Positions 31,359-46,652 of a stretch of 64,000 nucleotides of DNA are shown one piece after another. Both the position numbers and the translations under genes were made by a program. The notes below the pieces were generated by a model, which was not told the origin of the DNA, did no database searches, and worked only from the letters and a program-made list of their open reading frames with translations. Source of the DNA: Polynucleobacter rarus (lineage in GTDB: Bacteria; Pseudomonadota; Gammaproteobacteria; Burkholderiales; Burkholderiaceae); contig NZ_NTGB01000001.1 in NCBI RefSeq assembly GCF_003072505.1, positions 570,820-634,819 of the forward strand. The letters run 5' to 3'. Position 1 is the stretch's first letter. Each line of letters starts with the position of its first letter.

Positions 31359-32597
31359 ATGAATACCAATCAAAAAATACCATCACATTTAATGAATAAT
31401 TTTGATACTGAGCATAAAAGCCTCATTTATTCATATAAAAAATTTGATCCACAGTCAGTTAAAAGTACTGATTCAACGATTGTAAATATCTGTACTGAGG
31501 CAGTTGATTTAGATGGCATGCAAAAGGAAGCTTTTGTTTCTTCCTCTCGCAACAGTTCTGGATGGAGGCTACCTACTGACGAAAGTTTACATTTACGAGG
31601 TGCTGACGCTGCTCCTCAGCCCTTGGCGATTCATAATGCTTCGGTACAAATGTGTTTACTGGATCAACTCAAAAAGATTTTTAATGAAGAAGGAGTAAAG
31701 GCTGAGAGCATTGTTGTCAAAGTCGATACGTACTTCAATATTAAAGGCTCTTTCTTTCGAGGGGATATTAAGAGCTGTTTAAAGGATATTGTGGTTAGTT
31801 TTGAGATTGAAGCTTCTATCCATGAAGATCAATTAAAGCTTTGTATTGCAGAGGCATTAAGACGATCACCAACAATTCGAGCGATTCGCTATCCAATGCA
31901 AAATACTTTTTCAATTAAAGCGAATGGCAAGAAAATCGCCTTACCTTCTAAAATGCAATCTGGGCTAGAGCAAGTCGCTGATCCAATATCAAGAATCTCA
32001 GGATATCAACAGTTAAAGCCTTTGCATCATGAAGGAGATGTGATTTTAGAAAAAAAAGCAAAATCAACCATGGAGCCACCTAAGCCTGGAGAAATTCCAG
32101 TTGGCTTATTGCCAGAAATTGACCGTACTGTGCATATAAGGGGAATTGGTAAAGTCAAAAACGAGCATCAGAATGAAGTTCAAACAAGTTTTTATCATCC
32201 CCTTGGCAGTATTTTCCAATATGTGAGTGACTTACATGAGCAGGATGTGGCCGGTAATGAGGCCCCTTCAGCTCTTACATATCACGGCGCATCTTTAGCT
32301 TTTTGTTTTATGACGCAATTTCATCGATATGCTGATGTCAATAAAATTGATCTGAGTGCCTTAAGAATTGTGCAATTAACACCTTTTGATTTGGAGCTAA
32401 ATAATAATCAAAACTTGGTATTTGATACACATATTTTTGTTGATGGTGATTTTAGTGATGAAGTCGGCACAGATTTAGTTAAGATGGCACATCAAGTCTG
32501 TTTTTTGCATGCTGCTTTAGAGAGTAGTAACGAAATTCATTACTCAATACAGCTCAATCAACAAGAAATTGTTCATCAAAAAACGTTAACGAATTAA
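31359..32597 (+). CDS. two-domain OsmC-like protein A
   Basis: 412 residues holding two OsmC-like modules. Domain 1 (about 40-200) has LRGADAAPQPLAIHNASVQM with one Cys and AEALRRSPTIRAI at the place of the second active-site Cys. Domain 2 (about 260-400) has YHGASLAFCFMTQFHRYADV and MAHQVCFLHAAL, retaining both Cys of the Ohr/OsmC thiol peroxidase pair. It is paralogous to and convergent with the next gene. OsmC/Ohr proteins reduce organic hydroperoxides; tandem fusion with one degenerate half is unusual. The assignment to the superfamily is by motif only. Confidence 0.65.
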   Translation: MNTNQKIPSHLMNNFDTEHKSLIYSYKKFDPQSVKSTDSTIVNICTEAVDLDGMQKEAFVSSSRNSSGWRLPTDESLHLRGADAAPQPLAIHNASVQMCLLDQLKKIFNEEGVKAESIVVKVDTYFNIKGSFFRGDIKSCLKDIVVSFEIEASIHEDQLKLCIAEALRRSPTIRAIRYPMQNTFSIKANGKKIALPSKMQSGLEQVADPISRISGYQQLKPLHHEGDVILEKKAKSTMEPPKPGEIPVGLLPEIDRTVHIRGIGKVKNEHQNEVQTSFYHPLGSIFQYVSDLHEQDVAGNEAPSALTYHGASLAFCFMTQFHRYADVNKIDLSALRIVQLTPFDLELNNNQNLVFDTHIFVDGDFSDEVGTDLVKMAHQVCFLHAALESSNEIHYSIQLNQQEIVHQKTLTN

Positions 32598-32631: not shown

Positions 32632-33765
32632 TTATCGAATATTCACAATCGGAATCAGCGCAGTAATAGCTGTTGCATGCAGATAACACGTGCGCTCTGA
32701 GACACTTAAAAGGGTTGTGCAGGTCGCGTCATCAGCTGTGCCATTGATAAATAAATGAGTATCTAAGGGACTAGCGACTGCATGTCCATTCTGAATCTGA
32801 TAAGAACTATCTTGCACGACTCTGAGACCTGCAATTGGCATCTTCATGTTTTCGATATAACGAGATAACTGCGTCATGAAACAAAAAGTGATACCAGCGC
32901 AAAGTAGGGTAAAACCAGAAGGATACTGGCGATTGGTTTCCAAGACAGAGACCTTGAAATTAAAATGGCTGGCTCCAGCAAGTTCTAGATACGTATCCAC
33001 ATCAATGGTAGATGCACCGGGAACCCATTTACTTTTGCCATGAATATTACGTAATACTTTGCCAGTAGGGCTAGCTGAGGCAAGAACCACTTCACCATCT
33101 ACCTTCGTTGTCAGCTTATGAATCGCATCATTGGTGACATAGCCTGCAGCAGGTGATGGGGCGGTCAGACGAACTTGGAAGGGATCTTCAATGTCATTTG
33201 CTGTGGAGTCATTTAAGTCAATCACAGTACGTCGTCGACCATTGGCATAGATTGCGAAGGTATTATGAAGTTGTTGATTTAAATAGCTGATTACGGCAGA
33301 TTTTTGCAAAGCCTCTTGTACTAGGTCATTAATTTGCGCACTTGACGCTGGACTTTGGATCGATACATTAATATCTGGCGGCTCTGAGTGGCCATGGCCA
33401 GTTCCTGAAACAAAAGAGCCAGTTAACCAGTAATGATTAATGACATTCAGCTCGATGGAGCTGATTTCAATTGCTTTATCTTTAGCTAGTTGCAAAATCC
33501 ACTGCATGATATCACCGTGCATCCCAGCATTAAAGTAGCCAAGTGGGAAAGGGGCTAAGTCACTACCTTTAAGATGACCACCTTCATCAGATGTAAAGCG
33601 CCATTCATCACCGGTGTTTGAACACGCAACGACAGCTTCTTTTTGGTGATGATGCAGTTGTCGTGCCTCAACATGAAAACTGTATAGTGAATCATTTGCA
33701 GAATGATTACCTTGCTTTGATAAAAAAGCTAAAGGAAAATTGATATCTTCTAAGCGATCTGACAT
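32632..33765 (-). CDS. two-domain OsmC-like protein B
   Basis: 377 residues with the same architecture as its convergent neighbour. Domain 1: LKGSDLAPFPLGYFNAGMHG, no Cys. Domain 2: SGFTLLCAGITFCFMTQLSR and LSVSERTCYLHATAI, with both candidate catalytic Cys. LHNTFAIYANGRRRTV parallels MQNTFSIKANGKKIAL in protein A, confirming common ancestry. It is divergent from the selenoprotein gene with about 150 bases between them. The predicted role is thiol-dependent peroxide or thiol chemistry; the true substrate is unknown. Confidence 0.65.
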   Translation of the reverse strand: MSDRLEDINFPLAFLSKQGNHSANDSLYSFHVEARQLHHHQKEAVVACSNTGDEWRFTSDEGGHLKGSDLAPFPLGYFNAGMHGDIMQWILQLAKDKAIEISSIELNVINHYWLTGSFVSGTGHGHSEPPDINVSIQSPASSAQINDLVQEALQKSAVISYLNQQLHNTFAIYANGRRRTVIDLNDSTANDIEDPFQVRLTAPSPAAGYVTNDAIHKLTTKVDGEVVLASASPTGKVLRNIHGKSKWVPGASTIDVDTYLELAGASHFNFKVSVLETNRQYPSGFTLLCAGITFCFMTQLSRYIENMKMPIAGLRVVQDSSYQIQNGHAVASPLDTHLFINGTADDATCTTLLSVSERTCYLHATAITALIPIVNIR

Positions 33766-33912
33766 GGTGTCTCCAGATTTATATTTATAAGTCGATTCTA
33801 CACAATATAAAAATCAATGCCATCCATTCAAAAAATGGTTACTATTAAATTAGATGATAAAAATTGATTTTGCACCTCATCCACAATATTTAAGAGATAG
33901 GAGAATATCGCT

Positions 33913-35151
33913 ATGGTAAGACTTGCTGATTTATCAGAAGCAGAACGTAAAATGCACTTAGACCGGGTGGCAACACTACCCGAATTTGCTGACCCAATCC
34001 TGAATCGTTGTAAACCTTTGAATCAAATGCGTATTGCCTTAATTACTACGGCAGGTATCCACACGCAACAAGATTTGCCTTTTGATACGATGGGATCGGG
34101 GATGGATTACCGCGTAATTCCAAACGATGTGACTGAAAAAAATCTCGTCATGAGCCATGCCTCAGTGAACTTTGATCGTACCGGTTTTCAGTCGGATGTG
34201 AATGTCGTGTTTCCCTTGCAAAGGATGCAAGAATTAGTTTCAGAGAAAGTGATTGGTTCATTAGCCAAATTTCATTACTCCTTTATGGGTGCCATTGCTC
34301 CAGTTACTAGATACAAAGATAAGGTGCAGGAATTAGTTGGCTTACTGAAACAAGATAAGGTTGACGCTGTTGTTCTAACTCCAGTTTGACCACTCTGCAC
34401 TTGCGCCGTGAGCGCAATCGGCTGGTATTTAGAAGCACAAGGAATCGCCACTGTTTCCATTAGTTTGATTCGTGAACACTCGGTCGCCTTAAAAGCGCCA
34501 AGAGCTTTATGGGTCCCGTTTATCCTAGGTCGCCCCTTAGGTGCACCCAACGAGCTAGCATTTCAACATCGTGTTTTAAAAGAGGCTTTAGATTTATTAC
34601 AAGAAACAAATTGGCCTGTATTAAAAGATTTTAATGAAGAAGCGCCTGCAGATGAACTGGGCTTTTATTCTGAAAATCTAGTCTGCCCAGTAAGCTTTCC
34701 GACTAAAACGGTGGAAGGTGATTTGCAAGCTCGCCTTTTAAATGAAATCGCACAGTTACAGGCTTGGTACTCTCTAGCGAAACAAGTCAAAGGGGGCACG
34801 ACTACGGGAATCACAGGTTGCACACCAGAGGAACTAGGATCTTTCATTGCATCCTGGTTGACTGATTCACCGAATCAGAGCCTAAAAAGTCTTTCTTACT
34901 TACCAGCAGCCATCTTGAAGCTAGCGACCGATGAGTTAAAAGCTTTTTATTACGAAGCAAAATCGGTTCAGCCAGGTAAGCATACTTTTATGAGTATTCA
35001 AGATTGGTTTTGGTTTGAAACGAGTGCGGGTGAAATTTTCCTACAATTAAAGGAGAAAGTATCTAATCTGGAGGATCCTACCTTTAAAGGCTTAGCAACT
35101 ACTAGTTTAGTACCAAGGGTGATTCAACAGCGCGTCGCTGTCTCAAAATAA
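33913..35151 (+). CDS. probable selenoprotein, GrdB/PrdB-like reductase family
   Basis: A single 412-residue reading if the TGA at 34387-34389 is read as selenocysteine (residue 159). The upstream half reads MRIALITTAGIHTQQDLPFD, with SHASVNFDRTGFQSDVNVVF. The site is VVLTPV-U-PLCTCAV (U-x-x-C-x-C), and the frame continues directly into SAIGWYLEAQGIATVSISLI and LWVPFILGRPLG. This is the pattern of the selenoprotein B glycine/betaine/sarcosine/D-proline reductase family, whose solitary members in aerobes have no known reaction. The start is ATG 33913 behind TAGGAGA. A SECIS-like hairpin follows the TGA. If Sec insertion is absent this would be two fragments. Confidence 0.78.
34387..34425 (+). 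promoter_or_regulatory. bacterial SECIS-like element after UGA
   Basis: Directly after the TGA (34387-34389) a perfect six-base stem TTGCGC (34401-34406) / GCGCAA (34412-34417) encloses the five-base loop CGTGA, whose second base is G. The loop begins 17 bases after the UGA, within the 16-37 base range known for bacterial SECIS elements. A lower helix CCA(C,T)/(G,G)TGG (34390-34394 with 34420-34425) extends the structure. This fits recognition by SelB. Confidence 0.7.
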
Positions 35152-35174
35152 ACTTTGTACCGGGGTTTTGGATT

Positions 35175-35207
35175 CCCAAAGGCTTAGTGAAGATCTAAGC
35201 CTTTGGG
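35175..35207. terminator. perfect 13-bp hairpin after selenoprotein gene
   Basis: CCCAAAGGCTTAG (35175-35187) pairs perfectly with CTAAGCCTTTGGG (35195-35207) around a 7-base loop, 23 bases after the stop codon. It lacks a strong T-run, so it may be a weak terminator or a 3' stabiliser. Confidence 0.5.
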
Positions 35208-35305
35208 GAAAGTCCTAAGTAGTATTTGTTTTAGTTTTGTATATATTGATAGATTATTCTCAATAAGATTCGTCAAAATGAATCATCCAAAAATCAGGAG
35301 ACCAG

Positions 35306-35698
35306 ATGACTGCCCCTTCAGTGACTAAGGCTGATATTTTGCAAGCTTGTAAAGACATGCTTTGCAAAGAACTCTATGTGGTATTTACAACGCCAACTAA
35401 TGGTATGGGCCCAGTCATGGAAAACTTGGAAAAGCATTTAGAGTTCCAAATTGCCCTAGAAAAATCAGGCGTGATGTTTGGCGCAGGACCATTTTTCGCT
35501 GAGAATGAATCGGATTGGAATGGTGAAGGCATGGTGATTATTCGGGCGAATTCTTTAGCCCATGCGCAGGAAATTGCTGCTAAAGATCCGATGCATCAAT
35601 GTGGCGCAAGGTCTTTTAAAGTCCGTCCTTGGTTACTTAATGAAGGATCGATTACGATTCAACTAAATTATTCTGACCGTTCACAAAAATTACTTTAA
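35306..35698 (+). CDS. YciI-family small protein
   Basis: 130 residues. KELYVVFTTPTNGMGPVMEN, then HLEFQIALEKSGVMFGAGPF and the AHAQEIAAKDPMHQCGARSF end fit the YciI ferredoxin-like fold with its conserved H and D(P) residues. Such proteins are linked to muconolactone-isomerase-like chemistry or act as small dimeric modules of catabolic operons. It precedes a Bug gene by 17 bases, in one transcript. Confidence 0.75.
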   Translation: MTAPSVTKADILQACKDMLCKELYVVFTTPTNGMGPVMENLEKHLEFQIALEKSGVMFGAGPFFAENESDWNGEGMVIIRANSLAHAQEIAAKDPMHQCGARSFKVRPWLLNEGSITIQLNYSDRSQKLL

Positions 35699-35715: not shown

Positions 35716-36711
35716 ATGGCATTGCAATCAATAAAGTCCTCTTTCCAGAAAATTAAAATTTGGCAATCCCTTACCTTTGCGCTTTGTGCATTGATGAGCA
35801 GTTCGGCATTCGCACAAAGTGATTTTCCTAAACAAAAACCGATTACTTTTATTGTGGCAACTGGTCCTGGTAGTTCGACCGACTCCATTGCCCGCTTAGT
35901 TGCCGCGAAGTTGACTGAAACTTTAGGTTGGAATGTCGTAGTAGAAAACAAGTTAGGAGCCAGTGGCAACATTGCTTGCGTCTATGTAAAAAGATCCAAT
36001 CCGGATGGCTATTCGATTTTGGTTCATAGTGTGTCATTTGCGATCAATCCAAGTATTTATAAAAATGCTGGCTATGACGCGATTAATGATTTTGAACCTG
36101 TTGCATTAGGCGCAAGTTCACCGAATGTGATTGGTATCAATACTTCTTTACCCGTGAATAATCTAAAAGAGTTAGTGAATTACGGCAAAAAAGAAAAATT
36201 GAGTTACTCATCCTCTGGGATTGGTACAACCACTCATTTGACGATTGAGCGTTTTAAAAATATGACGAATTCTGACTTTGTGCATGCCCCTTATCAACCT
36301 GCGCAAGCAGTAGGTGCAACGGTTGCAGGTCACACACAAATCTCGAGTACCTCGATGCCACCAACCATTCCGTTCATTAAAGCGGGTAAATTAAAAGCCT
36401 TAGCGGTTACGAGTGCGCAGCGTTCAGCAGCACTTCCTGATGTGCCGACAATGGCAGAACAAGGGTTTCCGGAATTTGATGACACGACTTGGTTTGGTTT
36501 CTTTTCAGCTAGCAAAACACCACCTGATGTTTTGGCGAAGTTAAATGCTGAAATCAACCGCGCAATTGAGTCGAAAGATGTCAAAGAAAAACTCACTGGC
36601 TTAGGACTTGATACCAAATCTTTATCACCAAGTGAATTTAAACAATACGTTAAAGCAGAGGTCCCTAAATGGGCAAGAGCCGTCAAAGAGTCCGGTGCTA
36701 CCGCTGAATGA
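35716..36711 (+). CDS. Bug/TctC-family periplasmic solute-binding protein 7
   Basis: 331 residues; signal peptide ends near SAFAQS, then KPITFIVATGPGSSTDSIAR, VENKLGASGNIACVYV and VHAPYQPAQAVGATVAGHTQ. It is the closest in-window relative of the protein at 21536. It is in the same direction as the YciI-like gene and convergent with a GST-like gene. Confidence 0.92.
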   Translation: MALQSIKSSFQKIKIWQSLTFALCALMSSSAFAQSDFPKQKPITFIVATGPGSSTDSIARLVAAKLTETLGWNVVVENKLGASGNIACVYVKRSNPDGYSILVHSVSFAINPSIYKNAGYDAINDFEPVALGASSPNVIGINTSLPVNNLKELVNYGKKEKLSYSSSGIGTTTHLTIERFKNMTNSDFVHAPYQPAQAVGATVAGHTQISSTSMPPTIPFIKAGKLKALAVTSAQRSAALPDVPTMAEQGFPEFDDTTWFGFFSASKTPPDVLAKLNAEINRAIESKDVKEKLTGLGLDTKSLSPSEFKQYVKAEVPKWARAVKESGATAE

Positions 36712-46115: not shown

Positions 46116-46652
46116 ATGACAACAGAAACTCAAGTTAATTTTTTACGTCCAATTGACCGCGAGGGTTTATTGAAATTCGCGGAAGCTGGTCGTGCCAATC
46201 CAGAACGTCGTGGAACTAATAAAGTTAAAACTGTGATGCAGGGTGTCTTTCGTTCATGGAGTTTTGTCGGTGTACATAATCCAGTCGTAGTAGATGAGCC
46301 ACCGCACCTCATGGGTGAGAATTCTGCACCTGCACCTGGTGAGATCGTTCTTTCAGCTCTAGGCGGGTGCCTAGGCGTTGGTATTACTGCCGTTGCCACC
46401 CTGCGTGAAGTCAAGCTATCGAAGTTAGAGATTCATCTAGAAGGTGATATTGGTAACTCTGCTGCCTGGGGAGCGGATGGTGCCGAGCGCACTCCAGAAC
46501 AAATGGGCTTTCAGGCGATTCGTGTGAAGGTTGATATCGAAGGGGATGCGACGAAAGAGGAATTAGATGACATCGTTACCCATGCTAATTATTTCTCACC
46601 CGTTGCGAACTCGATGCGTAATCCGATTGCTTTTGAAATTAGTACGATCTAA
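46116..46652 (+). CDS. OsmC-family protein
   Basis: 178 residues: VDEPPHLMGENSAPAPGEIV, then LSALGGCLGVGITAVATLRE with the first active-site-type Cys and HANYFSPVANSMRNP where the second Cys is replaced by Phe/Ser. It is thus a one-Cys OsmC member, possibly a thiol carrier or inactive. It is 28 bases after the NrtA-like gene and 22 bases before the acyl-CoA-dehydrogenase-like gene, in one operon. Confidence 0.85.
   Translation: MTTETQVNFLRPIDREGLLKFAEAGRANPERRGTNKVKTVMQGVFRSWSFVGVHNPVVVDEPPHLMGENSAPAPGEIVLSALGGCLGVGITAVATLREVKLSKLEIHLEGDIGNSAAWGADGAERTPEQMGFQAIRVKVDIEGDATKEELDDIVTHANYFSPVANSMRNPIAFEISTI

Follow-up and report, generated by a model that had tools for sequence, protein, structure and literature searches.

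A probable stand-alone selenoprotein with a GrdB/PrdB-type catalytic domain in Polynucleobacter rarus and its relatives

Results

A 412-codon gene with one in-frame TGA

The window analysed here is a 64,000-nucleotide stretch of the Polynucleobacter rarus genome, and all unprefixed coordinates refer to it. On its forward strand, positions 33913-35151 form a single frame of 412 codons that contains one in-frame TGA, at 34387-34389, and closes with a TAA at 35149-35151. When the TGA is counted as a residue the product (P0001) is 412 aa long and the TGA is residue 159, in the context TPV-U-PLCTCAV. The first-pass annotation had placed two open segments, 33913-34389 and 34408-35151, in one frame; they do share it, their joined translation being the 412-aa protein, and the GTG at 34408 is merely the next start codon available past the TGA. 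The features of the locus are:

31359-32597, + strand: second two-domain OsmC-related protein, no in-frame TGA (NF041052, 122 bits, cut-off 95)
32632-33765, - strand: divergent neighbour, a two-domain OsmC-related protein, no in-frame TGA (NF041052, 116 bits, cut-off 95)
33913-35151, + strand: predicted stand-alone PrdB/GrdB-domain selenoprotein gene, 412 aa, one Sec codon (TGA shared by 80/80 related loci; dN/dS)
33997-34620, + strand: Rossmann-like GrdB/PrdB catalytic domain, about residues 29-236 (PF07355, TIGR04483, AlphaFold2 model)
34387-34389, + strand: TGA as probable selenocysteine, residue 159, motif U-P-x-C-T (invariant in 58/58 aligned rows)
34401-34417, + strand: putative SECIS-type hairpin TTGCGC-CGTGA-GCGCAA (covariation across relatives)
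34696-35148, + strand: all-helical C-terminal domain, residues 262-412 (AlphaFold2 model; invariant E278, W285 and P354)
35306-35698, + strand: YciI-related protein, downstream (PF03795; kept in loci L054 and L055)
35716-36711, + strand: TctC-type periplasmic receptor, downstream (PF03401)

A promoter and terminator scan gave results at or below chance. It missed a strong stem-loop at 35174-35208, downstream of the selenoprotein gene and ahead of the YciI gene, which may separate the two transcripts.

The TGA is kept, and the protein conserved, on both sides

We scanned genome contigs with patterns taken from residues 80-87 and 118-125, both clear of the Sec site, and found 119 relatives, of which 80 loci (78 assemblies by accession prefix) were analysed and 39 left out. 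The first-pass annotation had left it to homologues to tell whether residue 159 is Cys or Sec: all 80 analysed loci have TGA there and none has Cys. Among 399 sampled genomes of the order, 21 gave matches (25 in all at E up to 1e-40, two of them partial), and each of the 25 contains one TGA. In a sample of 398 genomes of the phylum the sole full-length match was the window's own gene. Another 15 genomes matched (E up to 1e-10) over model positions 21-231 only; their frames are mostly 311-336 residues long and contain no stop, apart from two matches with TGA in a single genome (G198). The latter two (G198:C1:2204980-2205600 and 834681-835262) match model positions 30-230 with the TGA inside, one of them in a 311-aa frame, and are possibly a short Sec form of the family.

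Sequence conservation in the alignment runs unbroken past the TGA. Compared with L054 and L055, dN/dS is about 0.05 before the TGA and about 0.1 after it, indicating purifying selection on the downstream part as well; for L056 and L057, dS was saturated in 3 of 4 comparisons. The protein alignment holds P0001 and 57 of the 80 loci (58 rows), near-copies, partial sequences and frames with an extra TGA near the end having been omitted. Residues invariant in all 58 rows include the Sec position, P160, C162, T163, H82, H121, C258, E278, W285 and P354. The vicinal cysteines that had earlier seemed conserved are so only in part: C162 belongs to the invariant set, but position 164 is C in just 29 rows, R in 27 and S in 2.

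Among 36 congeners, 19 have a shorter protein of about 320 residues (L006-L024) that matches residues 27-232 only and has Cys (NCPICHQ) in both sequences read. Across the 37 genomes of the genus examined, this protein and the Sec gene never occur in one genome. In a tree of 58 rows (35 of the 58 alignment rows, the 19 shorter congener proteins and four GrdB-type proteins from a Burkholderiales assembly, G460, with no PrdB row), the family forms one group (99/93) apart from both the congener proteins and the GrdB-type proteins, with long branches meeting. Second copies of the Sec gene are found in tandem in L097 (11235-12482) and as two per genome in G557, G607, G747 and G825. The absence of a Cys form from the sampled relatives suggests a chemistry that sulfur cannot do well.

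A hairpin that covaries across relatives

Downstream of the TGA the strands of a 6-bp stem, TTGCGC (34401-34406) and GCGCAA (34412-34417), enclose the 5-base loop CGTGA (34407-34411). Stem and loop are as first described; the 17-base spacing given for the stem is that of the loop, which starts 18 nt after the TGA (17 between), whereas the stem starts 12 nt after it (11 between). On its own, the 48-base segment from the TGA onward folds with a z of -0.79 and 35 of 200 shuffles are as stable; since this is unremarkable, the window by itself would not prove Sec. An Rfam scan of 33500-35500 returned six chance-level hits, none of them at the TGA.

The comparison across relatives is more telling. 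In 72 distinct hairpins 86.5% of cells are paired, a value that none of 500 shuffles reaches (at most 83.3%), and two-sided compensatory changes occupy 38 cells, where the shuffles average 7.6 and never exceed 25 and slid controls give 1 to 10; these shuffles ignore the relatedness of the sequences. Relative to synonymous recodings the mean z is -0.93, with 75/81 hairpins folding below the mean of their recodings (z below zero) and 13/81 below -1.5. Coding constraints (A-V codons; P-x-C-T-x-A-V) also fix the loop G and some of the stem.

Selenocysteine machinery in the carrier genomes

In the host genome (G000, 99.99% complete at 3.16 Mb), selA (562 bits) and selB (439 bits) cluster with a tRNA-Sec (71 bits), and selD (421 bits) lies at a separate site, so that all four genes named beforehand as the ones to look for are present; ARAGORN classes the tRNA as SeC and gives TCA as its anticodon. 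Across 61 genomes (the host and 60 relatives), selB scored over its cut-off in 5/5 carriers of the TGA gene and in 7/56 non-carriers (Fisher p 1.3e-4, phylogeny ignored). In a wider set of 51 carrier genomes, made up of the host and those of 50 of the 80 loci, selA exceeded its cut-off in 45; incomplete draft assemblies may account for the other six. Linkage to sel genes was found in 1 of the 80 loci, many of which have short flanks: in L071 (G038:C5:68988-75519) about 2 kb separate the Sec gene from selA-selB-tRNA-Sec.

The case for Sec beyond chance comes from the relatives, which keep the TGA, stay conserved downstream of it and have a covarying hairpin; residue 159 is very probably decoded as selenocysteine. 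The earlier call of a probable selenoprotein is borne out by the sel genes and by the TGA in 80/80 loci and 25/25 order-level matches. That the TGA is instead a true stop, left by a pseudogene, a sequencing error or a split into two genes, would suit the unremarkable hairpin of the window, but we rejected it as extremely improbable given the identical TGA throughout those loci and matches, the purifying selection 3' of it and the intact Sec machinery.

We also searched for other selenoproteins. Four genomes (G009, G032, G041 and G452) have a Sec FdhA, and none was found in the host, G003, G015 and G038, the latter three being drafts. G009 and G032 have selB and lack the TGA gene, so 4 of the 6 tested carriers are without Sec FdhA. 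In the host no TGA was found in selD or in eight OsmC_like_Se matches; among the three families searched, the TGA gene is so far the only selenoprotein found there.

A catalytic domain of the GrdB/PrdB type fused to a helical domain

The N-terminal half matches PF07355 (Pfam GRDB) over residues 29-156 with 45.5 bits, above the gathering cut-off of 22. The best NCBIfam match, TIGR04483 (PrdB), covers residues 33-232 with 120.4 bits and stays far under its equivalog cut-off of 300. The GrdB-type models score 52-58 bits, with cut-offs of 65-800; TIGR01917 (GrdB) gives 52 bits, its equivalog cut-off being 602.2. The initial description of the gene as GrdB/PrdB-like therefore holds for the catalytic domain and for that domain only.

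In the AlphaFold2 model (pLDDT 89.6 for the whole protein) the N-terminal domain is Rossmann-like and the C-terminal domain is helical and separate from it; modelled alone, the latter has seven helices (pLDDT 93.4). Residues 262-412 lie outside every listed stretch of the Pfam and NCBIfam matches. We found no solved relative by sequence, and Foldseek at E 0.001 gave no match for the whole model or for the C-terminal domain. The best fold matches have Z 7.8 (rmsd 3.8, 143 aligned) for the whole model and Z 4.9 (rmsd 4.9, 104 aligned) for the C-terminal domain, the VIA-align rows of the whole model being mostly common Rossmann-type arrangements with Z under 8. GrdB or PrdB entries, which the database may hold, do not appear in the fold-match lists.

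The reductase partners are missing from nearly all carriers

Glycine and proline reductases need a pyruvoyl protein (GrdE, PrdA), which in the known members of the family binds the amine substrate as a Schiff base, and glycine reductase also needs GrdA. The pyruvoyl partner was searched with PF09338, which presumably covers PrdA as well as GrdE, rather than with PrdA's own model, and GrdA with PF04723. Both are absent from 50 of the 51 carrier genomes, mostly drafts, the host being one of the 50. The remaining genome, G460, has five copies of PF09338 and one of PF04723; since it scores for both, the searches work, and it serves as an internal positive control.

G460, the genome of L075 (see also L146-L149), encodes Sec-containing GrdB-type proteins in addition to the four that we read, and a GrdA whose gene contains a TGA. 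Provided the bin is free of contamination, this genome has several glycine-reductase-like complexes.

The survey name for such genes, proline reductase PrdB, would make ours a true subunit of D-proline (or glycine, betaine or sarcosine) reductase. PrdB is indeed the best curated relative by score and the UxxC motif is as listed for PrdB. We nevertheless rejected a glycine or proline reductase as very improbable, with the partners absent and the model scores below cut-off; in addition, the protein has 412 aa with an extra domain against 238 positions in the PrdB model, and the four GrdB-type proteins of G460 group apart in the tree. Because the required partner is nearly always missing, the name of the reaction is not carried over to this subfamily.

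Genomic neighbourhood

The gene had been noted as a solitary member beside OsmC-like genes, and both upstream neighbours do match the OsmC-related (seleno)protein model. The Sec gene and its divergent OsmC-related neighbour are paired likewise in L055 but not in L054, where another gene lies upstream. The YciI gene downstream is common to L054 and L055, with a weaker match beside L092. A further OsmC-like protein (GGCLGVG), without TGA, lies at 46119-46652 of the window. Elsewhere, a Sec-containing OsmC gene (ULLTQ) lies directly downstream in 7 of the 80 loci (L076, L077, L078, L079, L080, L082 and L096); as these are betaproteobacterial by title and several are close kin, they represent few independent events. 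An OsmC_like_Se match over cut-off and with TGA is present in 12 of the 51 carrier genomes, and thioesterase-like (4HBT) proteins are found downstream in six related loci.

No neighbour is conserved across the family. We surveyed 81 of the 132 nearest neighbours, with frames chosen by length alone, some of them spurious; they match 100 Pfam families, the commonest in just 3 of the 81, and a conserved gene cluster was accordingly rejected as a clue to the substrate. Such mixed neighbours indicate neither substrate nor partner. TctC genes lie near many loci (21 by clustering, 25 by phmmer with the window included); since TctC-type receptors are numerous in such bacteria, we give this proximity no weight.

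Discussion

We propose that the locus encodes a Sec-decoded selenoenzyme of 412 residues that works without a partner and uses its fused domain as substrate site, an explanation that we consider probable as a whole. SelB and tRNA-Sec would decode the TGA with the help of the hairpin just 3' of it; comparative sequence evidence strongly supports this predicted Sec decoding. The Rossmann-like N-terminal domain would carry the GrdB/PrdB site, with Sec159 as the putative nucleophile and, judging from the UxxC pattern, Cys162 as the likely resolving thiol. The fused helical domain would hold the substrate in place of the pyruvoyl protein: the enzyme presumably works alone, because that partner was not found and the helical domain is fused, the case for its absence coming mostly from draft assemblies. 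The selenolate would then attack a small electrophile, most likely an activated C-X bond, or else a peroxide or disulfide. Once the leaving group had departed, Cys162 would resolve the selenium adduct, and cellular thiols would return it to the reduced state. To judge from adjacency, some betaproteobacteria probably transcribe the gene together with that of an OsmC-like selenoprotein, which would serve the same process. As to the class of substrate, cleavage of a C-X bond is a first guess that falls somewhat short of probable, with peroxide or disulfide reduction ranked second.

The alternative that survives best is a thiol peroxidase or other detoxifying redox enzyme, paired with OsmC-like proteins, rather than a catabolic C-X reductase. 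OsmC/Ohr proteins reduce organic hydroperoxides, and this idea would fit the two OsmC-related genes upstream in the window, the Sec-containing OsmC gene directly downstream in seven loci, and the GST and AhpC/TSA domains in 3 and 2 of the 81 scattered neighbours. The catalytic domain, however, comes from a reductive-cleavage family and not from a peroxidase family, and the OsmC link is limited to a few loci with betaproteobacterial titles, the other neighbours being acyl-CoA, hydrolase and transport genes. We thus regard a detoxifying enzyme as rather unlikely, and prefer the partner-free selenoenzyme with reductive cleavage as its first candidate reaction.

Comparison with known systems

D-proline reductase PrdB (TIGR04483) shares a homologous catalytic domain, over residues 33-232, and the UxxC motif; our gene differs from it in lacking a PF09338-type partner, in its length (412 aa against a model of 238 positions) and in its score of 120 against a cut-off of 300. 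GrdB, GrdF and GrdH of glycine, betaine and sarcosine reductase have a homologous Sec-bearing domain (52-58 bits), but no GrdE-type partner or GrdA was found for our protein, its fused C-terminal domain lies outside those models, and its motif is UxxCT, as opposed to the UxxCxxC described for Grd proteins in the available text of PMC13188914. A precedent for a leaving group other than an amine is FarB of fluoroacetate dehalorespiration, a GrdB-type Sec protein that the available part of PMC10838667 proposes to attack the carbon-fluorine bond; it is proposed there to act with a GrdE-type partner, FarE, in an anaerobic reaction of a rumen bacterium from another phylum. The OsmC-related (seleno)protein NF041052 belongs to a different family and is a candidate partner, not a homologue, with Sec forms directly downstream in the seven loci and TGA-less relatives upstream in the window.

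Some relatives appear to be marine: L105 by its title (Tara Red Sea), and L108, L122, L132 and L133 by project or clade names. Two marine surveys, in the portions available, list 42 UxxC 'PrdB' genes in Sargasso Sea data (PMC1088965) and 235 in Global Ocean Sampling data (PMC2398784), among the most abundant selenoprotein families in both, and both also list OsmC-like UxxT selenoproteins. These 'PrdB' proteins likewise have Sec in UxxC, and a GRDB-type domain is named in the available text of PMC2398784. Such selenoproteins are therefore not new to databases, having been listed since 2005. Likening them by description and not by sequence, we infer that many marine 'PrdB' selenoproteins belong to the present subfamily. 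The surveys call theirs proline reductase and, in those portions, mention neither loss of the partner nor a fused domain; the marine class has carried that name since 2005, yet the partner is missing in 50 of 51 carrier genomes.

In the literature searched, which was thin in subscription journals and preprints, we found no paper assigning the subfamily a function and no earlier mention of the absent partner, the fused domain, the missing Cys forms in samples, the OsmC pairing or Sec decoding without a Sec FdhA. A more far-reaching reading, less likely than not, is that this may be a widespread, essentially Cys-form-less selenoenzyme family of oxic waters (a habitat taken from record names), with partner-free reductive cleavage and a fused helical domain that our searches matched to no known fold, and that in some lineages, including the host's, it might have replaced formate dehydrogenase as the keeper of Sec decoding. 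In the 2006 set, as the available part of PMC1794560 describes it, every Sec-decoding member of the Alpha- and Betaproteobacteria had a single selenoprotein gene, a neighbouring fdhA. P. rarus and three relatives, in which no Sec FdhA was found, depart from this fdhA-only pattern, and such carriers make it testable what keeps Sec decoding alive.
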